From contig NZ_CP010535.1 in assembly GCF_001430825.1 (NCBI RefSeq), positions 2,770,501 to 2,834,500 on the forward strand: DNA of 64,000 nt, in the 5' to 3' direction. The notes beneath the pieces are model-generated. The model worked only from the letters and a program-made list of their open reading frames with translations, was not told the origin of the DNA and did no database searches. Each line of letters begins with the position of its first letter. Position 1 is the first letter of the stretch. Below, one piece after another: positions 26,096 through 36,803 of the stretch. Made by a program: the position numbers and the translations under genes. Source of the DNA: Sediminicola sp. YIK13 (GTDB lineage: Bacteria > Bacteroidota > Bacteroidia > Flavobacteriales > Flavobacteriaceae).

Positions 26096-26869
26096 TTATC
26101 TAAATAAGATCAAGACAGCTCCTATGGCGGTCAATAACAGAATCATTTTTCGGTAATGTTTATCCTTGATAATTTTCACTAACCGGATGCCCACAAAAAG
26201 CCCCAATAAGATACCTGGCAATAGTTTGAGATTAACCATCAATGTTTCTGTGGTAATCGTTTCCCAAACAATAATGTGAAAGGGCAATTTAAATAGGTTG
26301 ACAATAAAAAATAGCCAGGCCGCTGTCCCTATAAATTCATTTTTAGGAAGGCGCATTGCTAAAAAGAAGATATTGGAAAAGGCGCCGGCCAAATTCCCGA
26401 TCATGGTGGTGATACCTGCCAAAATTCCAATGAATCCTCCAAACGCCCAATGGGTGGGTACCGCTTTAGATTTCCTTTGATCCCACCAATACATCATGAG
26501 CACGCTGCCCAAAATAATACCGGCCATCCCTATTTTAAAGATTTTTTGTGGCAAGTCCTTTCCAATGATAACACCAATAATAACACCAAGCACCATCCAG
26601 GGCAGTAAGCGGATGATGTAGCGCCATTGGGTATGCCTATGGTAGTATATAACCGCAAATATATCCCCAACAACAAGAAGGGGGACCAATAGGCCTGTAG
26701 ATTCCTTTGCGCCAAAAGCGAGGGCCATAAGGGTGACATTGATGATGGCAATCCCTTTAATGCCCGCTTTGGAGATCCCTATCACGCAAGCTGCGGTGAT
26801 GGCGAGAACCCAAGAGGTGGTTGTAATATCCAAGGTTGAAAGGATGATTATAGTGGAAGTTTGATGCAC
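26096..26869 (-). CDS. TauE/SafE (TSUP) family permease
   Basis: A 257-residue inner-membrane protein with about eight helices and the TSUP pattern of two half-repeats: an N-terminal GISKAGIKGIAIINVTLMA and a second GNLAGAFSNIFFLAMRLPK. TSUP members export sulfite, sulfoacetate or related organic anions. No sulfur-metabolism genes are adjacent, so the substrate is open. Confidence 0.85.
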   Translation of the reverse strand: MHQTSTIIILSTLDITTTSWVLAITAACVIGISKAGIKGIAIINVTLMALAFGAKESTGLLVPLLVVGDIFAVIYYHRHTQWRYIIRLLPWMVLGVIIGVIIGKDLPQKIFKIGMAGIILGSVLMMYWWDQRKSKAVPTHWAFGGFIGILAGITTMIGNLAGAFSNIFFLAMRLPKNEFIGTAAWLFFIVNLFKLPFHIIVWETITTETLMVNLKLLPGILLGLFVGIRLVKIIKDKHYRKMILLLTAIGAVLILFR

Positions 26870-26957: not shown

Positions 26958-27770
26958 CTAATTAGTGCCAAAGGCCCAATTGGTAAATTTTGGAAAGACT
27001 TTGGCCCAGGTCTTTAAATTGTGTTTTCCACCATCCAATTCCACATAGGTAATATCACCAGGAAAGGAGTAGCCCTTTTCCTGAAGTTCTTTGATGACGT
27101 CGGTAGTATCGTCGATAGAATCTATGATGCCATTATTGTTCCTGTCTGCCGTCTCGTCCTCCGTTCCGCATTGGAACCAAAATTTAAGATGGGGGTTGTA
27201 GGTACCTTTTTTAACAACATCCAACACAATACGGCTTCTGTCCGCAACATCATTGACAGTGTAGGCTTTGTTGCGCCACCAAAATGATCCACTAAAAACC
27301 CCTACTTTTCCAAAATATTGGGCGTTGTTGTAAACGATATCAAATGCAGATAAGCCACCTAAGGACATACCGCAGTACACCCAATCCTGGGCATCTTTGG
27401 AAACCTTAAATTCGGCCCTCAAAAAAGGGATGAATTCCTCTATCAAGAATTTAGAATAATTTATGGCCCTAGCACCGCGGCCCTTGAAATCTGGGGAAGA
27501 TGCTGTGCCGTATTCTTGAATGCGATTGTTATTGGCCTCTATACCGACATACACGAAAGGTTTGCCTGTCTTTGAAGAAAATGCAGAAGGAAGGGTCTTC
27601 TCCAACTCCAAATTCACAAAATCCTGCCCATCGTTCATCAATAAAACAGGGAAGGGCGTTTCGGAATCCTTGTAGTGAGGGGGGGCGACCAATCTAAAAG
27701 TAACCTTCCTACCCAAATATTTTGAATAGAGATTTCCTTTTAATCCAATAAATTCACTTTCAAATTGCAT
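26958..27770 (-). CDS. Esterase D/IroE-type alpha/beta hydrolase
   Basis: A 270-residue cytosolic hydrolase (no signal peptide). Nucleophile elbow GMSLGG at 134-139 (Ser136), HNLKTW with catalytic His250, and an acidic site near CGTEDE (201-206). Residues 209-220 (DRNNNGIIDSID) look like an EF-hand-type Ca2+ loop. It is divergent from, and paired with, the second esterase that opens the amidoligase operon. A possible -7 element (TATACTTG) lies on the minus strand at 27797-27790. It may hydrolyse an ester or peptide made by that operon; this is inference. Confidence 0.8.
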   Translation of the reverse strand: MQFESEFIGLKGNLYSKYLGRKVTFRLVAPPHYKDSETPFPVLLMNDGQDFVNLELEKTLPSAFSSKTGKPFVYVGIEANNNRIQEYGTASSPDFKGRGARAINYSKFLIEEFIPFLRAEFKVSKDAQDWVYCGMSLGGLSAFDIVYNNAQYFGKVGVFSGSFWWRNKAYTVNDVADRSRIVLDVVKKGTYNPHLKFWFQCGTEDETADRNNNGIIDSIDDTTDVIKELQEKGYSFPGDITYVELDGGKHNLKTWAKVFPKFTNWAFGTN

Positions 27771-27874
27771 TTTTTCTTCTAAGGGTCTGCAAGTATACCA
27801 ATTACTTAAAAAACCATTGCAATAGATGCGTGATTGTAAGCGTTTTTTAACATTTTTAAAGTATATTTAACTCT

Positions 27875-28585
27875 ATGGCAGAAATTCAATACATTCAATA
27901 TTATTCTAACACATTAGATAGAAACATCAACCTAGAAGTGACTGGACACTGGGGATATCCTATTTTATTGTTCCCTTCCTCGGGAGGTTCTTACACCCAA
28001 AATACTGATTTTGGGCTCAATCAATCCGTGATGCAATTTATTGAGCAGGGCCGGATCAAACTCTATAATGTGGAGACGCTTGACATGCTTACATTTTATG
28101 ATGACCATTTGGCTTCGGAAATAAAAATACAACGGTATGAACTGTACATGAAATTTCTCCAAACGGAATTGATTCCGTATATTCAAAATCAATGCAACAC
28201 CGAACGAATTGCTGTTGGGGGCTGTAGTTTTGGAGGATATCACGCAGGAAACACTGCCTTCAGATTTCCAGATCTGGTCTCCCATCTCTTCTCCATGTCA
28301 GGGGTTTTTAATATTCGGAATTTTACGCCTCTCTCTGATGATATGGCCATATATTTCAATTGTCCGGATGAGTTTATGCGCAATGAAGAGCCTTGGAAAT
28401 ACAATCATGTGGAGATTGTGCTGAGCACCTCGGATTGGGACAGTTGCCGGCCAAAAAACCTGCACATGTCGCACGTATTAAATGAAAAGGGCATACATCA
28501 TTGGTACGATGAAAAAAAATGGATAGAGCACGATTGGCCACTTTGGAAAATGGCATTTCCAGAATATGTGGAACGTTTCTTTTAA
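27875..28585 (+). CDS. Putative esterase (alpha/beta hydrolase), first gene of amidoligase operon
   Basis: A 236-residue protein of the esterase-D-like superfamily: GHWGYPILLFPSSGG (oxyanion side), GGCSFGGYHA with Ser118, and EHDWPLW with His219. Bacteroidota often annotate it simply as esterase. It starts 104 bases from the divergent esterase and is followed after 29 bases by the ATP-grasp gene on the same strand. Substrate unknown; it may trim or activate the cluster's product. Confidence 0.78.
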   Translation: MAEIQYIQYYSNTLDRNINLEVTGHWGYPILLFPSSGGSYTQNTDFGLNQSVMQFIEQGRIKLYNVETLDMLTFYDDHLASEIKIQRYELYMKFLQTELIPYIQNQCNTERIAVGGCSFGGYHAGNTAFRFPDLVSHLFSMSGVFNIRNFTPLSDDMAIYFNCPDEFMRNEEPWKYNHVEIVLSTSDWDSCRPKNLHMSHVLNEKGIHHWYDEKKWIEHDWPLWKMAFPEYVERFF

Positions 28586-28614
28586 ATGTATAATGCAAAC
28601 TAAAAATATAGATT

Positions 28615-29739
28615 ATGGTTAAGAAAGTGGGAATATTGTTTGGGATGGAAGACACCTTTCCTTGGGAATTTATAAATAGGGTCAATGAATTAGGTAATGG
28701 AAAGGTCGTTGCCGAACCAGTAAAAATCGATAAGGTACAACAAGGTATTGATTATGGATATCATGTTATTTTTGATAGGATTTCCCAAGAAGTTCCTTTT
28801 TATAGAGCTTACTTAAAAAATGCTTCCTTGATGGGGACAACTATCGTCAACAATCCATTTTGGTGGAGTGCAGATGAGAAGTTTTTCAATAACTGTTTGT
28901 CTATACAATTGGGGGTTCCTGTACCAAAAACCATTCTATTGCCGTCCAAAGAAAGACCGGATGATACTTCAGAAAAGTCGTTTCGAAACTTGGAAGCGCC
29001 ATTGGATTGGGATTATATATTCAATTATATTGGATTTCCGGCCTATATGAAACCGCACTCAGGTGGAGGTTGGAAAAATGTATACAGGGTTGACAATCCG
29101 GATGATTTTTTCAACAAATATGGGGAAACGGGTCAGTTGGTGATGATGCTGCAGGAAGAAATCGTTTTTGAAGATTACTACAGGGTTTATTGTTTGGGCC
29201 AAAAATATGTTCATATTATGCCTTACGAGCCTAGGAACGAACCTCATTTGCGATATGCTACCACGCCTAAAACAACTGGGGCCGAGCACAAAAAGTTAAT
29301 GAAAACAATCCATGACTATACCTTATTGCTGAACAAGGCTTTGGGATATGATTTCAATACGGTTGAATTTGCGGTTCGCAACGGAGTGCCTATTGCCATA
29401 GATTTTTGCAACCCTGCACCTGATGCTGATGTAAATTCAGTGGGACAGGAGAATTTTGAGTGGATTGTGGAACATTCCGCAAAACTGGCCATTGAGATGG
29501 CCAATGCGCACAAGCCCAAACAAAACAATAGTAGTTGGGGGACCTTCGTCCAGAATGCTGTGGCACCGCCAAAAAAAGCACCAATAAAAAGTTCTCTTAA
29601 GTCGGCCTCTGAGGCAAAAAAGACAGTAGTGAAAAAAGCGCCTGCAAAAGGTAAGGGTGTGTTGGCAAAGACGGTGAAGCCGGCTGCTAAAAAAGCAGCG
29701 CCCAAAAAGGCAGCCCCAAAAAAGGCAACAAAAAAATAA
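28615..29739 (+). CDS. ATP-grasp ligase with Lys/Ala-rich C-terminal tail
   Basis: 374 residues. The ATP-grasp core spans about 80-300: a flexible ATP-binding loop YMKPHSGGGWKNV (144-156), a central EEIVFEDYYRVYCLG strand pair, and the metal-binding end EFAVRNGVPIAIDFCNPAPD (251-270) with Glu251, Asp263 and Asn266. This fold makes amide bonds via acyl-phosphates. Residues 319-374 are a low-complexity tail with 20 lysines and KKAAP repeats, like histone H1 tails. It is second in the operon, 65 bases before the YbdK-type gene. The substrate pair is unknown. Confidence 0.85.
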   Translation: MVKKVGILFGMEDTFPWEFINRVNELGNGKVVAEPVKIDKVQQGIDYGYHVIFDRISQEVPFYRAYLKNASLMGTTIVNNPFWWSADEKFFNNCLSIQLGVPVPKTILLPSKERPDDTSEKSFRNLEAPLDWDYIFNYIGFPAYMKPHSGGGWKNVYRVDNPDDFFNKYGETGQLVMMLQEEIVFEDYYRVYCLGQKYVHIMPYEPRNEPHLRYATTPKTTGAEHKKLMKTIHDYTLLLNKALGYDFNTVEFAVRNGVPIAIDFCNPAPDADVNSVGQENFEWIVEHSAKLAIEMANAHKPKQNNSSWGTFVQNAVAPPKKAPIKSSLKSASEAKKTVVKKAPAKGKGVLAKTVKPAAKKAAPKKAAPKKATKK

Positions 29740-29804
29740 ACTCGGGTCCATATCTAAATTACAGATAGGACGCGCACATCTAAATTTATTAAGGCATTAA
29801 TTCT

Positions 29805-30902
29805 ATGAAAAAGTTCACACTGGGAATTGAGGAGGAATTTCAAATTTTGGATAGCGATACGCTTACCTTACGATCGCACATGTCCAAAATTTACGAAGGG
29901 GGAAAGGTGCTCCTAAAGGAACGGATCAAGGAAGAAATGCATCAGGCCGTAGTTGAAATGGGCACCAATATTTGTGAAAATATACAAGAAGCCCGGGATG
30001 AAGTCTCCTATTTAAGACAACAGGTCATAGAATTGGCCGGGGCTGAAGGACTGAAGGTGGCTGCGGCAGGGACCCATCCCTTTTCGCATTGGAGTGATCA
30101 ATTGATTACTCGCGATCCAAGGTATGATGCCCTTATTGAAGAAATGAAGGATGTGGCCAGGTCCAACCTAATTTTTGGGTTACACGTTCATGTGGGAATT
30201 CCAAGTCGGGAAGAAGGCTTACAGATAATGAATGTGGCACGTTATTTCCTGCCGCACCTTTACGCCTTGTCAACCAACTCCCCTTTTTGGGAGGCCAGGG
30301 AGACCGGATTTAAGTCGTACCGATCCAAAATATTTGACAAATTTCCCCGAACCGGAATACCGCCATACTTTTCCAGCGTGGCCGAGTACGACAAATTTGT
30401 GGATATCCTTGTAAAAACAAACTGCATAGACAACGGCAAAAAAATCTGGTGGGATATTCGTTTGCACCCATTCTACCCAACGGTGGAGTTCAGGATCTGT
30501 GATATGGTACAGACTGTAGATGAGGTTATCTGCATTGCCGCCATTATGCAATGTATTATTGCAAAACTACACAGGCTGCACCAGAAGAACCAAAGCTTTA
30601 GATCGTACCGTAGGGTGTTGATCAACGAGAACAAATGGCGGGCCGCTAGATGGGGCATGGATGCCAAACTGATCGATTTCGGTAAGGAAGAAGAAGTGCC
30701 TTTTGAAGTATTGATACAGGAACTTTTGGAGTTTATAGATGATGTGGTGGATGAATTGGGATGCCGCAAAGAAGTTAATTTTGTGTACCAAATGTTGGAA
30801 CAAGGATCTGGAGCCGATAGACAGCTTAAGGTCTTTAATGAAACCAATGACTTAAAGGAGGTTATCAAATATGTAGTAGACCAAACTTCCAAGGGATTAT
30901 AA
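29805..30902 (+). CDS. YbdK-type carboxylate-amine ligase (GCS2 family)
   Basis: A 365-residue member of the glutamate-cysteine-ligase-2 family. N-terminal LGIEEEFQILD carries the metal-binding Glu cluster; GLHVHVGIPSR and PTVEFRICDMVQTVDE supply further His/Glu ligands. E. coli YbdK joins glutamate to cysteine weakly; natural substrates of most relatives are unknown. In this operon it sits between an ATP-grasp ligase and a glutamine amidotransferase, which suggests a step in building a gamma-glutamyl or other amide compound. Confidence 0.9.
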   Translation: MKKFTLGIEEEFQILDSDTLTLRSHMSKIYEGGKVLLKERIKEEMHQAVVEMGTNICENIQEARDEVSYLRQQVIELAGAEGLKVAAAGTHPFSHWSDQLITRDPRYDALIEEMKDVARSNLIFGLHVHVGIPSREEGLQIMNVARYFLPHLYALSTNSPFWEARETGFKSYRSKIFDKFPRTGIPPYFSSVAEYDKFVDILVKTNCIDNGKKIWWDIRLHPFYPTVEFRICDMVQTVDEVICIAAIMQCIIAKLHRLHQKNQSFRSYRRVLINENKWRAARWGMDAKLIDFGKEEEVPFEVLIQELLEFIDDVVDELGCRKEVNFVYQMLEQGSGADRQLKVFNETNDLKEVIKYVVDQTSKGL

Positions 30903-30971
30903 TTTAATCTGGTTTTCAGAAAGATAAGAAGTAAAATGAGTAATTTTGCCCTCTTGAAAAAGAAAGATCTA

Positions 30972-31808
30972 ATGAAGATGAACTATAATATTGCTGTGCT
31001 CGATTTGAATGCCGGTCAATTGAACGAGGGTATGCGCTGCATTAAGAAGTTGGTAGAGCAATTTTTATCACAAGAAGATATAAATGGCCAATACACGGTA
31101 TTTGATGTCCGCAATGCCATAGAATTACCAGATATTACAGATTACGATATTTTTATCTCATCAGGCGGCCCTGGCGCCCCCTTTGTTGCAGATGAAAAAT
31201 GGGAACAACCATTTTTTGCCTTTTTGGATGCAGTTTTGGAGCATAATGCGCAACACCAGCATAAAAAACACTTGTTTTTAATATGCCATTCCTTCCAATT
31301 GGCATGTTTGCATTGGGATTTGGCCAAAGTGACCAAACGTAAGTCCACCTCCTTTGGAGTTATGCCTGTCCACAAGACCAAAGACGGACTAACAGAGCCC
31401 TTGTTCGAAGGGTTGATGAACCCATTTTTTGCCGTGGATTCCAGAGATTATCAAGTGATAAAGCCCAAATACAGCAAATTGGAAAAGTTTGGGGCAAAAA
31501 TATTGTGCAAAGAAAAGATTAGACCACATGTAGCCCTGGAAAGGGCTGTTATGGCCATACGCTTCTCCAAAGAAGTATTTGGGGTCCAATTTCATCCGGA
31601 AGCCGATTCTGAAGGAATGTTGAAATATTTCCATAGGGAGGATAAAAAAGCATTGGTTATCAAGCACCATGGAAAGAAAAAATACCAAAATATGCTGGAA
31701 CACCTTGAGGATGAGGACAAAATTGTGAGAACACACAACACCATGATCCCTGCTTTTCTAAAGCAGGCGGCCTTGTCCCTTAAGGAATCAAAACTACTGC
31801 CTATATGA
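30972..31808 (+). CDS. Class I glutamine amidotransferase-like protein
   Basis: About 278 residues from the ATG at 30972 (the frame opens at 30936). The triad of class I amidotransferases appears intact: Cys in LFLICHSFQLA, and His plus Glu in FGVQFHPEADSEG. The usual GxCxGxQ elbow is altered to ICHSFQ. It could supply ammonia from glutamine or, like PuuD, hydrolyse gamma-glutamyl amides. Its stop overlaps the next start by 4 bases, so it is coupled to that gene. Confidence 0.82.
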   Translation: MKMNYNIAVLDLNAGQLNEGMRCIKKLVEQFLSQEDINGQYTVFDVRNAIELPDITDYDIFISSGGPGAPFVADEKWEQPFFAFLDAVLEHNAQHQHKKHLFLICHSFQLACLHWDLAKVTKRKSTSFGVMPVHKTKDGLTEPLFEGLMNPFFAVDSRDYQVIKPKYSKLEKFGAKILCKEKIRPHVALERAVMAIRFSKEVFGVQFHPEADSEGMLKYFHREDKKALVIKHHGKKKYQNMLEHLEDEDKIVRTHNTMIPAFLKQAALSLKESKLLPI

Positions 31809-33001
31809 TAAAAAAGGTTCGCGAAACGTTTAATGAAAATTACAAACAGGAGTATTACGACAATCTCAAAAATGATCTGGCAAAATCATTTGGCGAACCA
31901 TGTGCATTCCGAATCTCGGAAACACCTTTTTTCATTGACAAAGAGTTAAAAAAAGAAGTTTTCGATGCGTGCGATACCATCATAGAACAATTGTGGAAGA
32001 TCGACTTTGAGGAGATTCGGGAAAAATTTATCCCCAAAAAATTACAATCTCCATCGGTACTGGGAAAACCCCATTTTCTTGCGATAGATTTTGGACTTTG
32101 CGATGACGGGCAAGGTGGAATAGCCCCTAAATTGATCGAACTCCAGTCCTTTCCCTCCCTATTTTTGTATCAAGCCTTGTTGGGAGAGTCATTTCTGAAA
32201 AATTATCCCCAAATTCCCAAGGAAGGTTTTCATTTTTATCTAAATGATCTCAATGAAGCCAGCTATTTAGAGGAATTGAAACGAGTTATAGTTGGGGACG
32301 AAAATCCAGAGAATGTAATTCTTTTGGAAATTTATCCTGAGAAACAAAAAACGAGGATTGATTTCTGGGCTACAAAACAAGCGCTGGGAATAGAGGTCCT
32401 TTGTTTGACCAAAGTGATCAAGGAAGGTAAAAATTTATTTTACGAAAAGAACGGAAGGAAGGTCAAAATCAACCGTATTTATAACCGGGTAATTCTGGAT
32501 GAGCTACTGCAGATGCCAGATTTAAAAACAGATTTTAACCTTACCGACGATGTGGATGTGGAATGGGTGACACATCCCGATTGGTTTTTTATGATCTCCA
32601 AGTGCATCATGCCCCTGCTATCACATAAAAACATCCCACAATCTTTCTATTTGAATGATTTCCCAAAGAATTTGGATTTGAGTGCCTATGTCCTTAAACC
32701 ATTGTTTTCTTTTGCGGGGAAAGGGATCAATTTAAATCCCACCTTGGAATTTATTGAGGGCATAAAGGACAGGCATAATTATATTCTTCAATCAAAAGTG
32801 AAGTACTCCCCAATCGTAAAGGCCCCAAGCGGGACAAATTCCAAGGTGGAATTGCGTATTCTTTACACATGGAGCGATACCGAGAACAGACTGATGCCGG
32901 TGATTAACCTTACCCGTATGAACAAGGGCGATTTGATCAATGTATCATATCTGTCCAATGATGACTGGGTGGGCTCTTCCATCTCCTTTTTTGAAGATTA
33001 A
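31805..33001 (+). CDS. Probable (circularly permuted) ATP-grasp-like protein, last gene of amidoligase operon
   Basis: 398 residues, usually annotated as hypothetical. Near the C-terminus YVLKPLFSFAGKGI (295-308) resembles the Lys-plus-Gly-rich ATP loop of ATP-grasp enzymes, followed by KVELRILYTW. An acidic segment PKLIELQSFPSLF (108-120) lies far N-terminal to it, the order seen in permuted members such as glutathionylspermidine synthase. The fold call is inference. Start ATG overlaps the amidotransferase stop by 4 bases; a convergent ribE ends 12 bases beyond. Confidence 0.6.
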   Translation: MIKKVRETFNENYKQEYYDNLKNDLAKSFGEPCAFRISETPFFIDKELKKEVFDACDTIIEQLWKIDFEEIREKFIPKKLQSPSVLGKPHFLAIDFGLCDDGQGGIAPKLIELQSFPSLFLYQALLGESFLKNYPQIPKEGFHFYLNDLNEASYLEELKRVIVGDENPENVILLEIYPEKQKTRIDFWATKQALGIEVLCLTKVIKEGKNLFYEKNGRKVKINRIYNRVILDELLQMPDLKTDFNLTDDVDVEWVTHPDWFFMISKCIMPLLSHKNIPQSFYLNDFPKNLDLSAYVLKPLFSFAGKGINLNPTLEFIEGIKDRHNYILQSKVKYSPIVKAPSGTNSKVELRILYTWSDTENRLMPVINLTRMNKGDLINVSYLSNDDWVGSSISFFED

Positions 33002-33012
33002 CCCTAGGTCGT

Positions 33013-33603
33013 TTATTGCTGTAAACCCATTAATCTAGAGACATATTTTCCGATAACATCAAATTCCAGGTTCACCTCTGTTCCAATAGTGTAGGTATTG
33101 AACCTAGTGTGTTCGTAGGTGTACGGGATTATGGCCACGCTAAATAGGTTCTTTTTAGAATCTACAACCGTTAAGCTAGTGCCGTCTATGGTAATGGAGC
33201 CCTTTTCGATGGTCACATTGTTTTTAGAAGGCTCGTATTCAAAGGTAAAAAACCAGCTTCCATCTTTTTGGTCAATGGCAATACAAGTCCCGGTTTGGTC
33301 CACATGTCCCTGTACCAGATGACCGTCTAACCGGGAGCCCAAGATCATGGCCCGTTCCAAATTTACAGGATCTCCTACCTCCAGTTGGTCCAGGTTGGTT
33401 TTTTCTAACGTTTCCTCTATGGCGGTTACGGTATAGGTGTCTCCATGTAAGGCAACAACAGTTAGGCAAACACCATTATGTGCAACACTTTGGTCTATTT
33501 TAAGCTCATGGGTTATGGGAGAAAATACGGTTATGTGTAAATTTCCTCCATCTTTTTTTAATTGTTTTATCTCCCCTAAAGTTTCAATAATACCTGTAAA
33601 CAT
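33013..33603 (-). CDS. ribE: Riboflavin synthase, alpha chain
   Basis: A 196-residue enzyme that dismutates two 6,7-dimethyl-8-ribityllumazines to riboflavin. Two lumazine-binding repeats are seen: residues 1-97, opening MFTGIIETLGEIKQL with the second motif VAHNGVCLTVV, and about 98-190, opening GHLVQGHVDQTG with the second motif ITIDGTSLTVVD. Length is normal. Single gene, divergent from pdxA. Confidence 0.95.
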   Translation of the reverse strand: MFTGIIETLGEIKQLKKDGGNLHITVFSPITHELKIDQSVAHNGVCLTVVALHGDTYTVTAIEETLEKTNLDQLEVGDPVNLERAMILGSRLDGHLVQGHVDQTGTCIAIDQKDGSWFFTFEYEPSKNNVTIEKGSITIDGTSLTVVDSKKNLFSVAIIPYTYEHTRFNTYTIGTEVNLEFDVIGKYVSRLMGLQQ

Positions 33604-33661
33604 GTGTCGTTTTAATTAAGTAGTTTTGTAGTGTAAAATTAGACATAAAGGTAAAGATACC

Positions 33662-34714
33662 ATGCAGGAAAGCGAAAAAATAAAATTGGGCATATCCATT
33701 GGAGATTTAAATGGGATAGGATGTGAGGTGGTGCTCAAAACTTTTGAGGATACCAGAATGCTAGATTTTTGCACGCCTATTATTTTTGCCTCTAACAAGG
33801 TAATTTCCTTTCAAAAGAATGCGTTAGGCATAGAGATCAATTACAATGGAATACAGGAAGTTTCCAAGGCTTTGGACGGCAAGATCAATGTATTTAACGT
33901 TTGGAAGGATGCTCCGGAGATCACATTCGGCGAGGCCACGGCCCAAGGGGGAGAATATGCGTTGAAGTCGCTCGTAGCTGCTGTAGACGCACTAAAAAAG
34001 GACGAAATAGATGTCTTGGTCACCGCGCCCATCAATAAAAACAACATACAAGCCAAGGACTTCAATTTTCCTGGACATACGGATTATTTGGCGAAGGAAT
34101 TGGAGGGGGAAAGCCTAATGTTTATGGTCACGGACAGTTTAAAAGTGGGCTTGTTAACGGATCATGTCGCGGTTAAAGATGCTCCTGCCGCCATCACGTC
34201 CAAATTGGTGAAGAGCAAGATAAAGACCATAGAGAATTCATTGAAAATGGATTTTGGGATTCGAAAGCCACGTATCGCCCTTTTGGGCATTAACCCCCAC
34301 AGTGGCGATAATGGTGTCATCGGCAAAGAAGATGACGAGGTGCTTAAGCCGGTGATCAAGGAGCTTATGGACGCCGGACATTTGGTCTACGGACCGTATT
34401 CCGCAGATAGCTTTTTTGGTTCGGATGCATATAAGAATTTTGATGCCATCCTCGCCGCCTATCACGATCAGGGACTTATTCCCTTTAAGACACTGTCGTT
34501 TGGGAAAGGGGTAAATTATACCGCAGGCCTGCGTAAAGTAAGGACTTCGCCAGACCATGGAACGGCCTATGAGATCGCAGGGAAGGGCAAGGCAGACCAT
34601 AGCTCTTTTAAGGAAGCGGTGTTCGCGGCACTACAAATTTTCAAGAACAGGGAAGAGTATAGGGAGTTGACGAGTAATCCTTTAAAAAAGCAGAAACTCA
34701 AACCCACAAGATAA
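33662..34714 (+). CDS. pdxA: 4-hydroxythreonine-4-phosphate dehydrogenase
   Basis: A 350-residue NAD-dependent enzyme of the DXP-dependent pyridoxal phosphate pathway. It opens LGISIGDLNGIGCEVVLK. Metal-ligand histidines are in FPGHTDYLAKEL, LLTDHVAVKD and AAYHDQGLIPFKTLSF, and the end of the active site is PDHGTAYEIAGKG. Downstream yceD has its own promoter. Confidence 0.96.
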   Translation: MQESEKIKLGISIGDLNGIGCEVVLKTFEDTRMLDFCTPIIFASNKVISFQKNALGIEINYNGIQEVSKALDGKINVFNVWKDAPEITFGEATAQGGEYALKSLVAAVDALKKDEIDVLVTAPINKNNIQAKDFNFPGHTDYLAKELEGESLMFMVTDSLKVGLLTDHVAVKDAPAAITSKLVKSKIKTIENSLKMDFGIRKPRIALLGINPHSGDNGVIGKEDDEVLKPVIKELMDAGHLVYGPYSADSFFGSDAYKNFDAILAAYHDQGLIPFKTLSFGKGVNYTAGLRKVRTSPDHGTAYEIAGKGKADHSSFKEAVFAALQIFKNREEYRELTSNPLKKQKLKPTR

Positions 34715-34819
34715 TTGTATCTTTGAACAATATTTGATCTTTGTTGGATCCCTAAAAGGTAAAAAGTTGTGCCAATTGGGATTAGGGTCAAAAAAGAGGC
34801 ATAAATAAGCCTTAAAAAG

Positions 34820-34849
34820 TTTGGAATTATTAAAATAATAGTATCTTTG
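34820..34849 (+). promoter_or_regulatory. Strong Bacteroidota promoter for yceD-rpmF-fabH
   Basis: TTTG at 34820-34823, 18 bases, then TATCTTTG at 34842-34849: an ideal match to TTTG-N18/19-TAnnTTTG. The yceD start is 45 bases downstream. Confidence 0.8.
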
Positions 34850-34893
34850 CACCCGCCTTTTAGGGGGACGGATACTCTAAACCAGTGTTAAAC

Positions 34894-35430
34894 ATGACGA
34901 AGCATAAGGAATTTGCTATTCCTTTTTCAGGATTGAAGCAGGGGAAGCATGAGTTTGAGTATAAAATAAAAAATGAGTTCTTTGAATCTTTTGAGTACGA
35001 TGACATTAATGGGGCCGACATAAATTTGTGGGTTACATTGAATAAGATGAGTACTATGTTGGAGTTGGAGATGGATGCAAAAGGGACGGTAAACGTCAAT
35101 TGTGACATCACGAACGAACCATTCGATCAAAAAATCACCTCTTCTTTGGAGTTGGTGGTAAAATTTGGGGATGAGTACAACGATGAGAACGATGAGATAT
35201 TAATTGTTCCCCACGGGGAACATCAGATCAACATTGCACAATATGTGTACGAAATGTTGGTCTTGGCAATACCTCAAAAAAGAGTACATCCTGGAGTTGA
35301 GGATGGTACCCTGGAGTCGGAAGTCATTGATAAGTTAGAAGAACTACAACCAAAAGAGGTTAAAGAAAATAAAGGAAACAATACAGATCCCAGATGGGAT
35401 GCTTTAAAAAAGTTATTAAAAGATAAATAA
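34894..35430 (+). CDS. yceD: YceD/DUF177 family protein (23S rRNA accumulation)
   Basis: 178 residues from the ATG at 34894 (an upstream GTG at 34885 adds three residues). The DUF177 pattern includes [16 protein letters not shown], with a single Cys where relatives often have a CxxC. An acidic middle follows, then [16 protein letters not shown] and a terminal [14 protein letters not shown], the classic end of the family. YceD is linked to 23S rRNA levels and is almost always upstream of rpmF, as here (8-base gap). Confidence 0.9.
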
Positions 35431-35438
35431 GGTTCACA

Positions 35439-35636
35439 ATGGCACATCCAAAAAGAAAGATTTCAAAAACCAGAAGAGATAAAAGGAGAACTCATTACAA
35501 AGCAGTAGCTCCAACAATTGCTAAAGATCCAACAACTGGTGAAATGCATTTGTACCACAGAGCTCACTGGCATGAAGGTAAATTATACTACAGAGGTCAA
35601 ATTTTGATCGATAAAACTGAAGAAGCTGCCGCTTAA
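35439..35636 (+). CDS. rpmF: 50S ribosomal protein L32
   Basis: 65 residues, basic, beginning [20 protein letters not shown]. The usual L32 zinc cysteines are absent (a C-minus form). Co-transcribed with yceD; a terminator at 35659-35690 follows. Confidence 0.96.
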
Positions 35637-35658
35637 TTAGGTTTTTATATAATATTGA

Positions 35659-35690
35659 ACTCCCACTTTAAAAGAGTGGGAGTTTTTTTA
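35659..35690 (+). terminator. Terminator after rpmF
   Basis: Perfect 10-bp stem AACTCCCACT / AGTGGGAGTT, loop of six, then T7. Confidence 0.85.
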
Positions 35691-35807
35691 TGGCACAGGG
35701 TCAAATTCAAAAACTAGAATTTTTAACCCTATAAGTCGTAAAAAATCATTAATTTTCACCACTTTTGAAGCATTTTTGAATGTTTTTGATTGAAAATCAG
35801 ATTTAGG

Positions 35808-36803
35808 ATGAACAAATTATCAGCAGCTATTACCGCTGTGGGAGCATATGTTCCTGACTTCATTTTGACCAATAAGCTATTGGAAGAGATGGTAGATACC
35901 AATGATGAGTGGATAACCAGTAGAACTGGAATCAAAGAAAGAAGAATACTGAAAAAGGAAGGTGCGGGAACTTCTTATATGGCCATAAAGGCAGCTGAGG
36001 AGCTTATTCAAAAAAGCAATTTGGATCCAACCGAAATCGATATGATCATCGTGGCTACGGCAACTCCTGATTTACAAGTTTCTTGTACCGCAGCCTATGT
36101 CGCTTCCGAGATAGGGGCAACCAATGCCTTTGGATACGATCTTCAGGCCGCTTGTTCCAGCTTTTTATATGGGATGTCCACTGCTTCAAGTTATATTGTT
36201 TCCGGACGCTACAAAAAAGTACTGCTTATCGGAGCAGATAAAATGTCTTCCATTATAGATTATACAGATAGAACCACTTGTATCATTTTTGGCGATGGTG
36301 CCGGTGCTGCATTGTTTGAACCCAATGAGGAAGGTCTTGGACTTCAGGATGAGTACTTAAGATCTGACGGGGTGGGGAGAAATTTCCTGAAAATTGATGC
36401 CGGAGGGTCACAATTGCCTGCCTCCTTGGAAACGGTTAAAAATCGCCAGCATTTTGTATTCCAAGATGGTAAGTCGGTGTTTAAATTTGCCGTATCCAAT
36501 ATGGCGGATGCCGCTGCTAAAATAATGGAACGCAACAACCTAACGGATAATGATGTATCTTGGTTATTGCCACACCAAGCCAACATGAGGATCATCAACG
36601 CTACGGCAAGCCGTATGGGTCTTGATGAATCCAAGGTATTGGTGAACATTGAAAAATATGGAAACACTACTTCTGCAACCTTACCATTGTTAATGGCCGA
36701 TTTTGAAAAGAGATTCAAAAAAGGCGATAATTTGGTTTTTGCAGCTTTCGGTGGTGGTTTCACCTGGGGCTCTATTTATCTGAAATGGGCGTATAATTCA
36801 TAA
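35808..36803 (+). CDS. fabH: Beta-ketoacyl-ACP synthase III
   Basis: 331 residues from the ATG at 35808 (the frame opens at a TTG, 35790). It starts fatty acid synthesis by condensing acetyl-CoA with malonyl-ACP. The catalytic triad is visible: Cys in LQAACSSFLYGM, His in WLLPHQANMRI and Asn in YGNTTSATLPL. The branched-chain preference common in Bacteroidota cannot be read directly. Followed by accB after 43 bases. Confidence 0.95.
   Translation: MNKLSAAITAVGAYVPDFILTNKLLEEMVDTNDEWITSRTGIKERRILKKEGAGTSYMAIKAAEELIQKSNLDPTEIDMIIVATATPDLQVSCTAAYVASEIGATNAFGYDLQAACSSFLYGMSTASSYIVSGRYKKVLLIGADKMSSIIDYTDRTTCIIFGDGAGAALFEPNEEGLGLQDEYLRSDGVGRNFLKIDAGGSQLPASLETVKNRQHFVFQDGKSVFKFAVSNMADAAAKIMERNNLTDNDVSWLLPHQANMRIINATASRMGLDESKVLVNIEKYGNTTSATLPLLMADFEKRFKKGDNLVFAAFGGGFTWGSIYLKWAYNS

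Follow-up and report, generated by a model that had tools for sequence, protein, structure and literature searches.

Five consecutive genes on the + strand of the genome of Sediminicola sp. YIK13, which we refer to as A to E in order of occurrence, form a compact operon at positions 27875-33001 of the 64,000-nucleotide stretch of DNA analysed here (the window), and their conserved order and the joint inheritance of B to E strongly support the conclusion that A-E constitute a functional unit. A (27875-28585, 236 residues) is an alpha/beta hydrolase, B (28615-29739, 374 residues) is modelled as an ATP-grasp ligase of the RimK/LysX/Ddl fold, C (29805-30902, 365 residues) is a predicted YbdK/GCS2 carboxylate-amine ligase, D (30936-31808, 290 residues) is a divergent class I glutamine amidotransferase (GATase)-like protein, and E (31805-33001, 398 residues) is modelled as a ligase of the glutathione synthetase (GS)/YgiC/GspS ATP-grasp fold. 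A second esterase gene, E0 (26958-27770, - strand), diverges from the operon. With moderate confidence, we lean towards reading the operon as the genes of a cytosolic assembly line that works without a carrier and makes a small amide-linked metabolite, a gamma-glutamyl peptide or amide being the likeliest product.

Conserved order of the five genes and concerted inheritance of B to E

The gaps between A and B, B and C, and C and D are 29, 65 and 33 bases, respectively, and the last 4 bases of D are shared with E in the list of open reading frames; an earlier note on this DNA, made from the letters alone, had correctly described five same-strand genes with short gaps and one 4-base overlap. A genome scan with an alignment of B provided a sample of named loci, the best 80 of at least 578 relatives. 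By record title, all 80 belong to Bacteroidota, and 69 of them carry the genes in the order A-B-C-D-E on a single strand, 36 of these also with a divergent E0. A is present in 78 of the 80 loci, C in 77, D in 72, E in 70 and E0 in 45, where it lies on the opposite strand in 41 cases. Seven of the 11 loci without the complete run sit on contigs shorter than 9 kb. The earlier note had proposed a gene-neighbourhood search across Bacteroidota and would have abandoned the idea of a pathway if the genes were found together only in close relatives. This is not what was found: the genera concerned include Maribacter, Muriicola, Chryseobacterium, Elizabethkingia, Dyadobacter, Runella, Hymenobacter and Algoriphagus, and B to E are co-inherited within families, as described below.

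Co-occurrence was analysed in 247 genomes drawn across Bacteroidota. A was kept out of this test because its many low-identity relatives (it has matches in 110 of the genomes) made it unfit. B is present in 87 genomes, C in 79, D in 60 and E in 73, counts to which some weak or distant matches contribute (B in G216, G087, G007 and G160, D in G215, and C at 35-42% identity in six genomes). B and C share 70 genomes, B and E 70, and C and E 68 (Fisher p <= 1e-34); the pairs involving D share 58 (B-D), 48 (C-D) and 46 (D-E). Because related genomes are not independent, labels were shuffled only inside variable families, and in 20,000 such shuffles an overlap as large as the real one never arose for any of the six pairs formed by B, C, D and E. 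These four genes have been gained and lost together, within families too. In the host genome, C is the sole GCS2/PF04107 match, and the searches with A, B, D and E yield one match each.

A mobile origin of the operon was also considered and is ruled against by the absence of B from 72,556 plasmid records and from viral contigs. One genome (G154, locus L182) keeps C-D-E with neither B nor A detected by these searches, and could serve as a natural experiment on which genes are required.

Ligases, amidotransferase-like protein and hydrolases

C is clearly a YbdK/GCS2 carboxylate-amine ligase by its profile matches, which extend over the full length of PF04107 (221 bits, cut-off 21) and exceed the cut-off of NCBIfam PRK13515 (547 versus 371 bits), and gamma-glutamyl ligation is its predicted activity. 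It is expected to yield a gamma-glutamyl amide because YbdK is reported to have gamma-glutamyl:cysteine ligase activity (Lehmann 2004, as cited in PMC2588565).

Neither B nor E has a Pfam match at an E-value of 1 or less, and the two show no significant link to each other in a profile comparison (0.1% probability). B scores 18.6 bits against NCBIfam rimK_fam, far below the cut-off of 143.4. A structure model of B has a mean predicted local distance difference test (pLDDT) score of 80, with most of the C-terminal tail below 50, and a Foldseek search with this model retrieved the fold of Ddl, RimK, LysX/ArgX and the ATP-grasp ligases of ribosomally synthesized and post-translationally modified peptides. 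Invariant residues are found in an alignment of 38 B sequences. As modelled, B is therefore an ATP-grasp ligase of the RimK/LysX/Ddl fold, and its likeness to RimK is one of fold alone. Graspetide ligases, another ATP-grasp group, are accompanied by a gene for a small precursor peptide, for which there is no space within the operon.

The C-terminal tail of B (29551-29739) is rich in Lys, Ala and Pro and resembles the tails of small DNA-binding proteins. The motif at the end of the core was located in 32 of 71 relatives; the tail is at least 20 residues long in 29 of these, and in 24 of the 29 at least half of it consists of K, A, P or R. B proteins of many Chryseobacterium loci are about 317 residues long and have no tail; therefore, the tail is not essential. 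Separately, a B-like protein of 43% identity directly adjoins two squalene/phytoene synthase genes at L068:6760-7692. That genome has no match to C, D or E and only a distant A-like match elsewhere, and the protein is perhaps a recruited paralogue.

The kinship of E is barely visible to sequence profiles, and its fold was recognized from a structure model, built from the window protein and 42 relatives that were chosen for diversity out of 68 complete ones (mean pLDDT 91.5). The top Foldseek matches of this model are yeast and human GS, E. coli YgiC and YjfC, and glutathionylspermidine synthetase (E-values 2e-13 to 7e-11). In VIA-align, E matches YgiC with Z 26.5 (3.4 A over 345 residues), GspS with Z 25.2, human GS with Z 24.4 and Cp1B with Z 22.6. 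The GS/GspS/YgiC group as a whole accounts for 26 rows with Z 19.3-26.5, in which 314-371 residues, that is, the whole chain, are aligned. The following rows begin at Z 12.4 with a putative gamma-glutamylcysteine synthetase (253 residues), and other ATP-grasp proteins reach 8.7 at most. In sequence comparisons, the E profile gave one weak match, to YgiC (E-value 0.0012), and a profile-profile comparison with YgiC, YjfC and Gss found no significant link (0.1% probability).

Residues D95, E112 and Q114 of E align with an Asp, a Glu and an Asn of E. coli YgiC, YjfC and Gss, which we take to be metal-binding residues, and K266 and K298 align with two lysines of the same proteins, presumably those that contact ATP. 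All five residues are invariant in 43 E sequences. The three E. coli proteins have an Arg two positions ahead of the Asp that aligns with D95; the seven E sequences aligned seem to have Ala or Thr there, in a part of the alignment that is gapped. From the model, we are confident that E has the GS/YgiC/GspS ATP-grasp fold over its whole length. Structure prediction, which the earlier note had recommended for each ligase, placed B with RimK/LysX/Ddl and E with GS/YgiC/GspS, and the three amide-bond-forming enzymes that it had predicted correspond to these two ATP-grasp-type ligases, recognized from their models, and the YbdK ligase C, recognized by PF04107. For YgiC and YjfC, the RefSeq annotation reads peptide--spermidine ligase, and an excerpt of PMC12568646 names them peptidylpolyamine synthetases.

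In 13 of the 247 genomes, B and D are present without E, and in all 13 another protein, X (about 450-470 residues), is encoded between B and D. Of three X proteins tested against PF14403 (circularly permuted ATP-grasp, cut-off 32), two pass with 37.3 and 32.5 bits and the third scores 31.6. Strong X matches (at least 52% identity) are restricted to these 13 genomes and never coincide with E (73 genomes); the E-bearing genome G137 has a relative at 37% identity, and the remaining X matches are weak. Since strong X is found only where B and D lack E, X takes the place of E. A profile comparison of E and X is not significant (2.2% probability), and therefore, remote kinship of E and X left aside, the replacement looks like an exchange of one ligase type for another. 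Five of the 13 genomes also carry a YbdK protein outside the cluster (46-49% identity). The host genome has a weak X match away from the operon (G000:C1:1108066-1108554, E-value 8.7e-4).

D passes the PF00117 cut-off (36.5 versus 22.8 bits), and its Cys-His-Glu triad is complete and does not vary among 25 aligned sequences, as expected for the class I amidotransferase with an intact triad seen in the earlier note; all NCBIfam GATase models matched by D remain far below their cut-offs. In its relatives, the protein begins some 12 codons downstream of the ATG listed for D, which places the true start probably at about 30972-30978. For D, the role of a gamma-glutamyl hydrolase or transferase seems to us more likely than that of an ammonia donor, since the ligases of this operon do not require ammonia and a synthetase partner cannot be recognized.

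The Ser hydrolase of the earlier prediction is A, at the head of the operon, which matches PF00756 (35.4 bits, cut-off 22). Its residues S118, D189 and H219, unchanged across an alignment of 74 sequences, are taken by motif as a putative catalytic triad. E0, described earlier as a second, diverging esterase, belongs to PF00756 too (88 bits, GMSLGG motif). In nine Hymenobacter loci (L113:5523-7079 and eight others), E0 is about 517 residues long, and the one tested, that of L113, is a fusion with a DinB_2/mycothiol-transferase-like domain.

Proposed pathway and alternative readings

The inheritance, as a unit, of three ligases whose sites are conserved, of a GATase-like protein and of Ser hydrolases is most simply explained by a small amide-linked product. 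What has been observed is the gene structure, the family or fold of the proteins, the conservation of catalytic residues and the concerted inheritance. In the scheme that we propose, C would couple the side-chain carboxylate of glutamate to an amine. E would then phosphorylate the free carboxylate of this product and join a second amine, which may be an amino acid, as in eukaryotic GS, or a polyamine, as in YgiC/GspS; enzymes that share the fold of E extend gamma-glutamyl compounds of this sort at a free carboxylate. B may append a further unit by a RimK/LysX/Ddl-type reaction, and D would hydrolyse or transfer the gamma-glutamyl group, for deprotection or turnover. A, together with E0, may act on an intermediate or on the product by cleaving an ester or amide. 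The earlier note had suggested a pathway for a small peptide, gamma-glutamyl amide or peptide tag. Its view of the genes as a functional unit is upheld by their order and co-inheritance, and a small peptide or amide fits best; no product can be named.

Several points weigh against this scheme. Its substrates, reaction order and product, and the roles of D and the hydrolases, are ones that we infer. YbdK relatives may use acids other than glutamate, and D could supply ammonia instead. Furthermore, B, C and E occur together in 65 of the 247 genomes, 24 of which have no D; in one family (f5), B, D and E are present in four of five genomes and C in none; and the clusters with X contain neither C nor E. 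Therefore, neither C nor D is needed everywhere, unless their replacements went unrecognized. In 20 of the 24 genomes without D, B, C and E do not all fall within 8 kb of one another. Co-occurrence of such scattered genes indicates that their link is not mere physical hitch-hiking, and their neighbours show no repeated theme among 10 flanking genes analysed with Pfam.

The lineage-specific neighbours of the operon bear on the alternatives. They were surveyed as the 28 commonest gene clusters around the 80 best loci (flanks of 8 kb), with one or two members per cluster tested by family search. If the operon tagged proteins or peptides, B and E or X would attach residues to a protein, from which D and A would take them off again. 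The RimK/LysX/ArgX fold of B and the annotation of YgiC/YjfC as peptide--spermidine ligases agree with such a role, and circularly permuted ATP-grasps such as X are said to have been linked by comparative genomics, in the 2009 work of Iyer, to a predicted tagging system. However, the operon gaps leave no room for a carrier or precursor gene, and in certain lineages genes for small-molecule enzymes (an M17 aminopeptidase, an aminotransferase) are added to the run; tagging is therefore unlikely. The aminopeptidase gene lies upstream on the same strand, together with a gene for an ATP-grasp_4 protein, in 26 of the 80 loci (25 of the Chryseobacterium group and one Flavobacteriaceae bacterium). The ATP-grasp_4 gene is located 10-314 bases before A in the 25 loci where this is measurable, and a further esterase is present in 21 of the 26.

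Quite unlikely, too, is the use or detoxification of amines by gamma-glutamylation, in which C would cap an amine and D would remove the glutamate after processing, following the logic of PuuA and PuuD. The pairing of a GCS2 ligase with a class I GATase-like protein suits this reading, as does a class III aminotransferase gene that lies at or up to 193 bases behind E on the same strand in 12 of the 80 loci (e.g. L104:12191-13378 and L115:12622-13854); the two tested are nearest to acetylornithine, ornithine and putrescine aminotransferases, below the cut-offs of all 25 families listed for each. Behind E, however, this gene is seen only in Dyadobacter, Lacihabitans, Spirosoma, Arundinibacter and one Cytophagales metagenome-assembled genome, B and E are left unexplained, and D is absent from the 24 genomes mentioned above. 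Under the small-metabolite reading, the aminotransferase perhaps makes or uses an amine building block of the product, and together with the YgiC-like fold of E it leaves room for a diamine or polyamine part in that product.

A glutathione-like thiol, for which C would make gamma-Glu-Cys and E would add the third residue, has in its favour the relationship of C to glutamate--cysteine ligases and the GS fold of E. It is nevertheless improbable: a third ligase would be superfluous for a tripeptide thiol, and BshC, taken as the mark of bacillithiol synthesis, occurs in 242 of the 247 genomes, that of the host included. Because BshC is nearly universal, replacement of the main low-molecular-weight thiol is unlikely, and this candidate was set aside. 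The GshB family PF02955 has matches in 110 of the 247 genomes, 106 of them above the cut-off; among the matches listed, 17 (15 genomes) have E-values below 1e-45 and the others start at 3e-27. The weaker ones are taken for other ATP-grasp proteins, so that this profile says little.

An accessory role in cyanophycin metabolism, with the ligases acting on units derived from Asp-Arg, is more improbable still. Such a role is suggested by a cyanophycin synthetase gene 162-1347 bases behind E in 10 Chryseobacterium-group loci and by cyanophycinase genes near the operon in 14 loci, beyond the synthetase in eight of the Chryseobacterium group and 4.6-6.0 kb before A in six of Hymenobacter. However, other genes intervene in the four of these six Hymenobacter loci whose gene order was inspected, and the host genome has no match to the N-terminal family of the synthetase. 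A beta-aspartyl-peptidase-like gene is also found near the operon in nine loci (the one tested scores 359 bits, cut-off 567). An anti-phage defence system was rejected, since PADLOC gave no real support: five of the six proteins had no match, and E had one weak match (Csx19, E-value 0.0049).

Relation to known systems, significance and flanking genes

The operon resembles glutathione biosynthesis with a eukaryote-type GS in pairing a glutamate--cysteine ligase-type ligase with one of GS fold, but C belongs to the YbdK family, a third ligase and hydrolase-type genes are added, and E shares no more than 14% identity with human GS (366 residues aligned). YgiC/YjfC/GspS provide the best full-length structural matches of E (Z 25-26), with the presumed metal ligands and ATP lysines aligned. 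E differs from them in sequence (13-14% identity), has no amidase domain and, in a gapped and hence uncertain column, seems to lack the Arg before the Asp. B shares its fold with RimK, LysX, ArgX and D-Ala-D-Ala ligases; it differs in falling far below the rimK_fam cut-off, in being encoded in an operon without a carrier-protein gene and in its Lys/Ala-rich tail.

The Cp1B/E-64 pathway is similar in that a free-standing GS-fold ligase builds a pseudodipeptide in a small-molecule pathway; as far as the excerpt of PMC12568646 describes it, that pathway is fungal, starts from an acid made by an oxygenase, and is presented with no mention of a YbdK ligase or GATase.

A search of the open-licence literature found nothing on this gene set. 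Operons of mixed amidoligases (ATP-grasp and GCS2) with hydrolases were reportedly catalogued by Iyer et al. in 2009, and the kind of system is therefore known in outline; there is a fair chance that an undescribed metabolite stands behind this operon. More tentatively, and we would sooner doubt than assert this, many environmental Bacteroidota may make an undescribed small peptide that is conserved in the manner of a cofactor or compatible solute rather than an antibiotic, with three free-standing ligase types, X having replaced E and the in-cluster C in several lineages. If the proposed small-metabolite pathway is right, between about one quarter and one third of the Bacteroidota genomes sampled here would carry an unassigned pathway for a small peptide or amide (B, C and E occur together in 65 of the 247, and B, X and D in a further 13), and a physiological setting would be provided for YbdK and YgiC-fold ligases, both of which are also carried by E. 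coli. Inheritance as a unit, the exchange of E for X and the presence of single-copy genes make the operon a tractable target.

The AT-rich region between the divergent E0 and A (27771-27874) is the presumed promoter region of both E0 and the operon; it contains 20 promoter-like sites, compared with 14.9 expected (standard deviation 3.0). At the other end, a convergent gene (33013-33603) begins 11 bases downstream of E. The flanks (26096-26869 and 33013-36803) look ordinary and include, according to Pfam, a TauE/SafE permease and a YceD protein; judged by eye, further genes resemble those for riboflavin synthase, PdxA and FabH.

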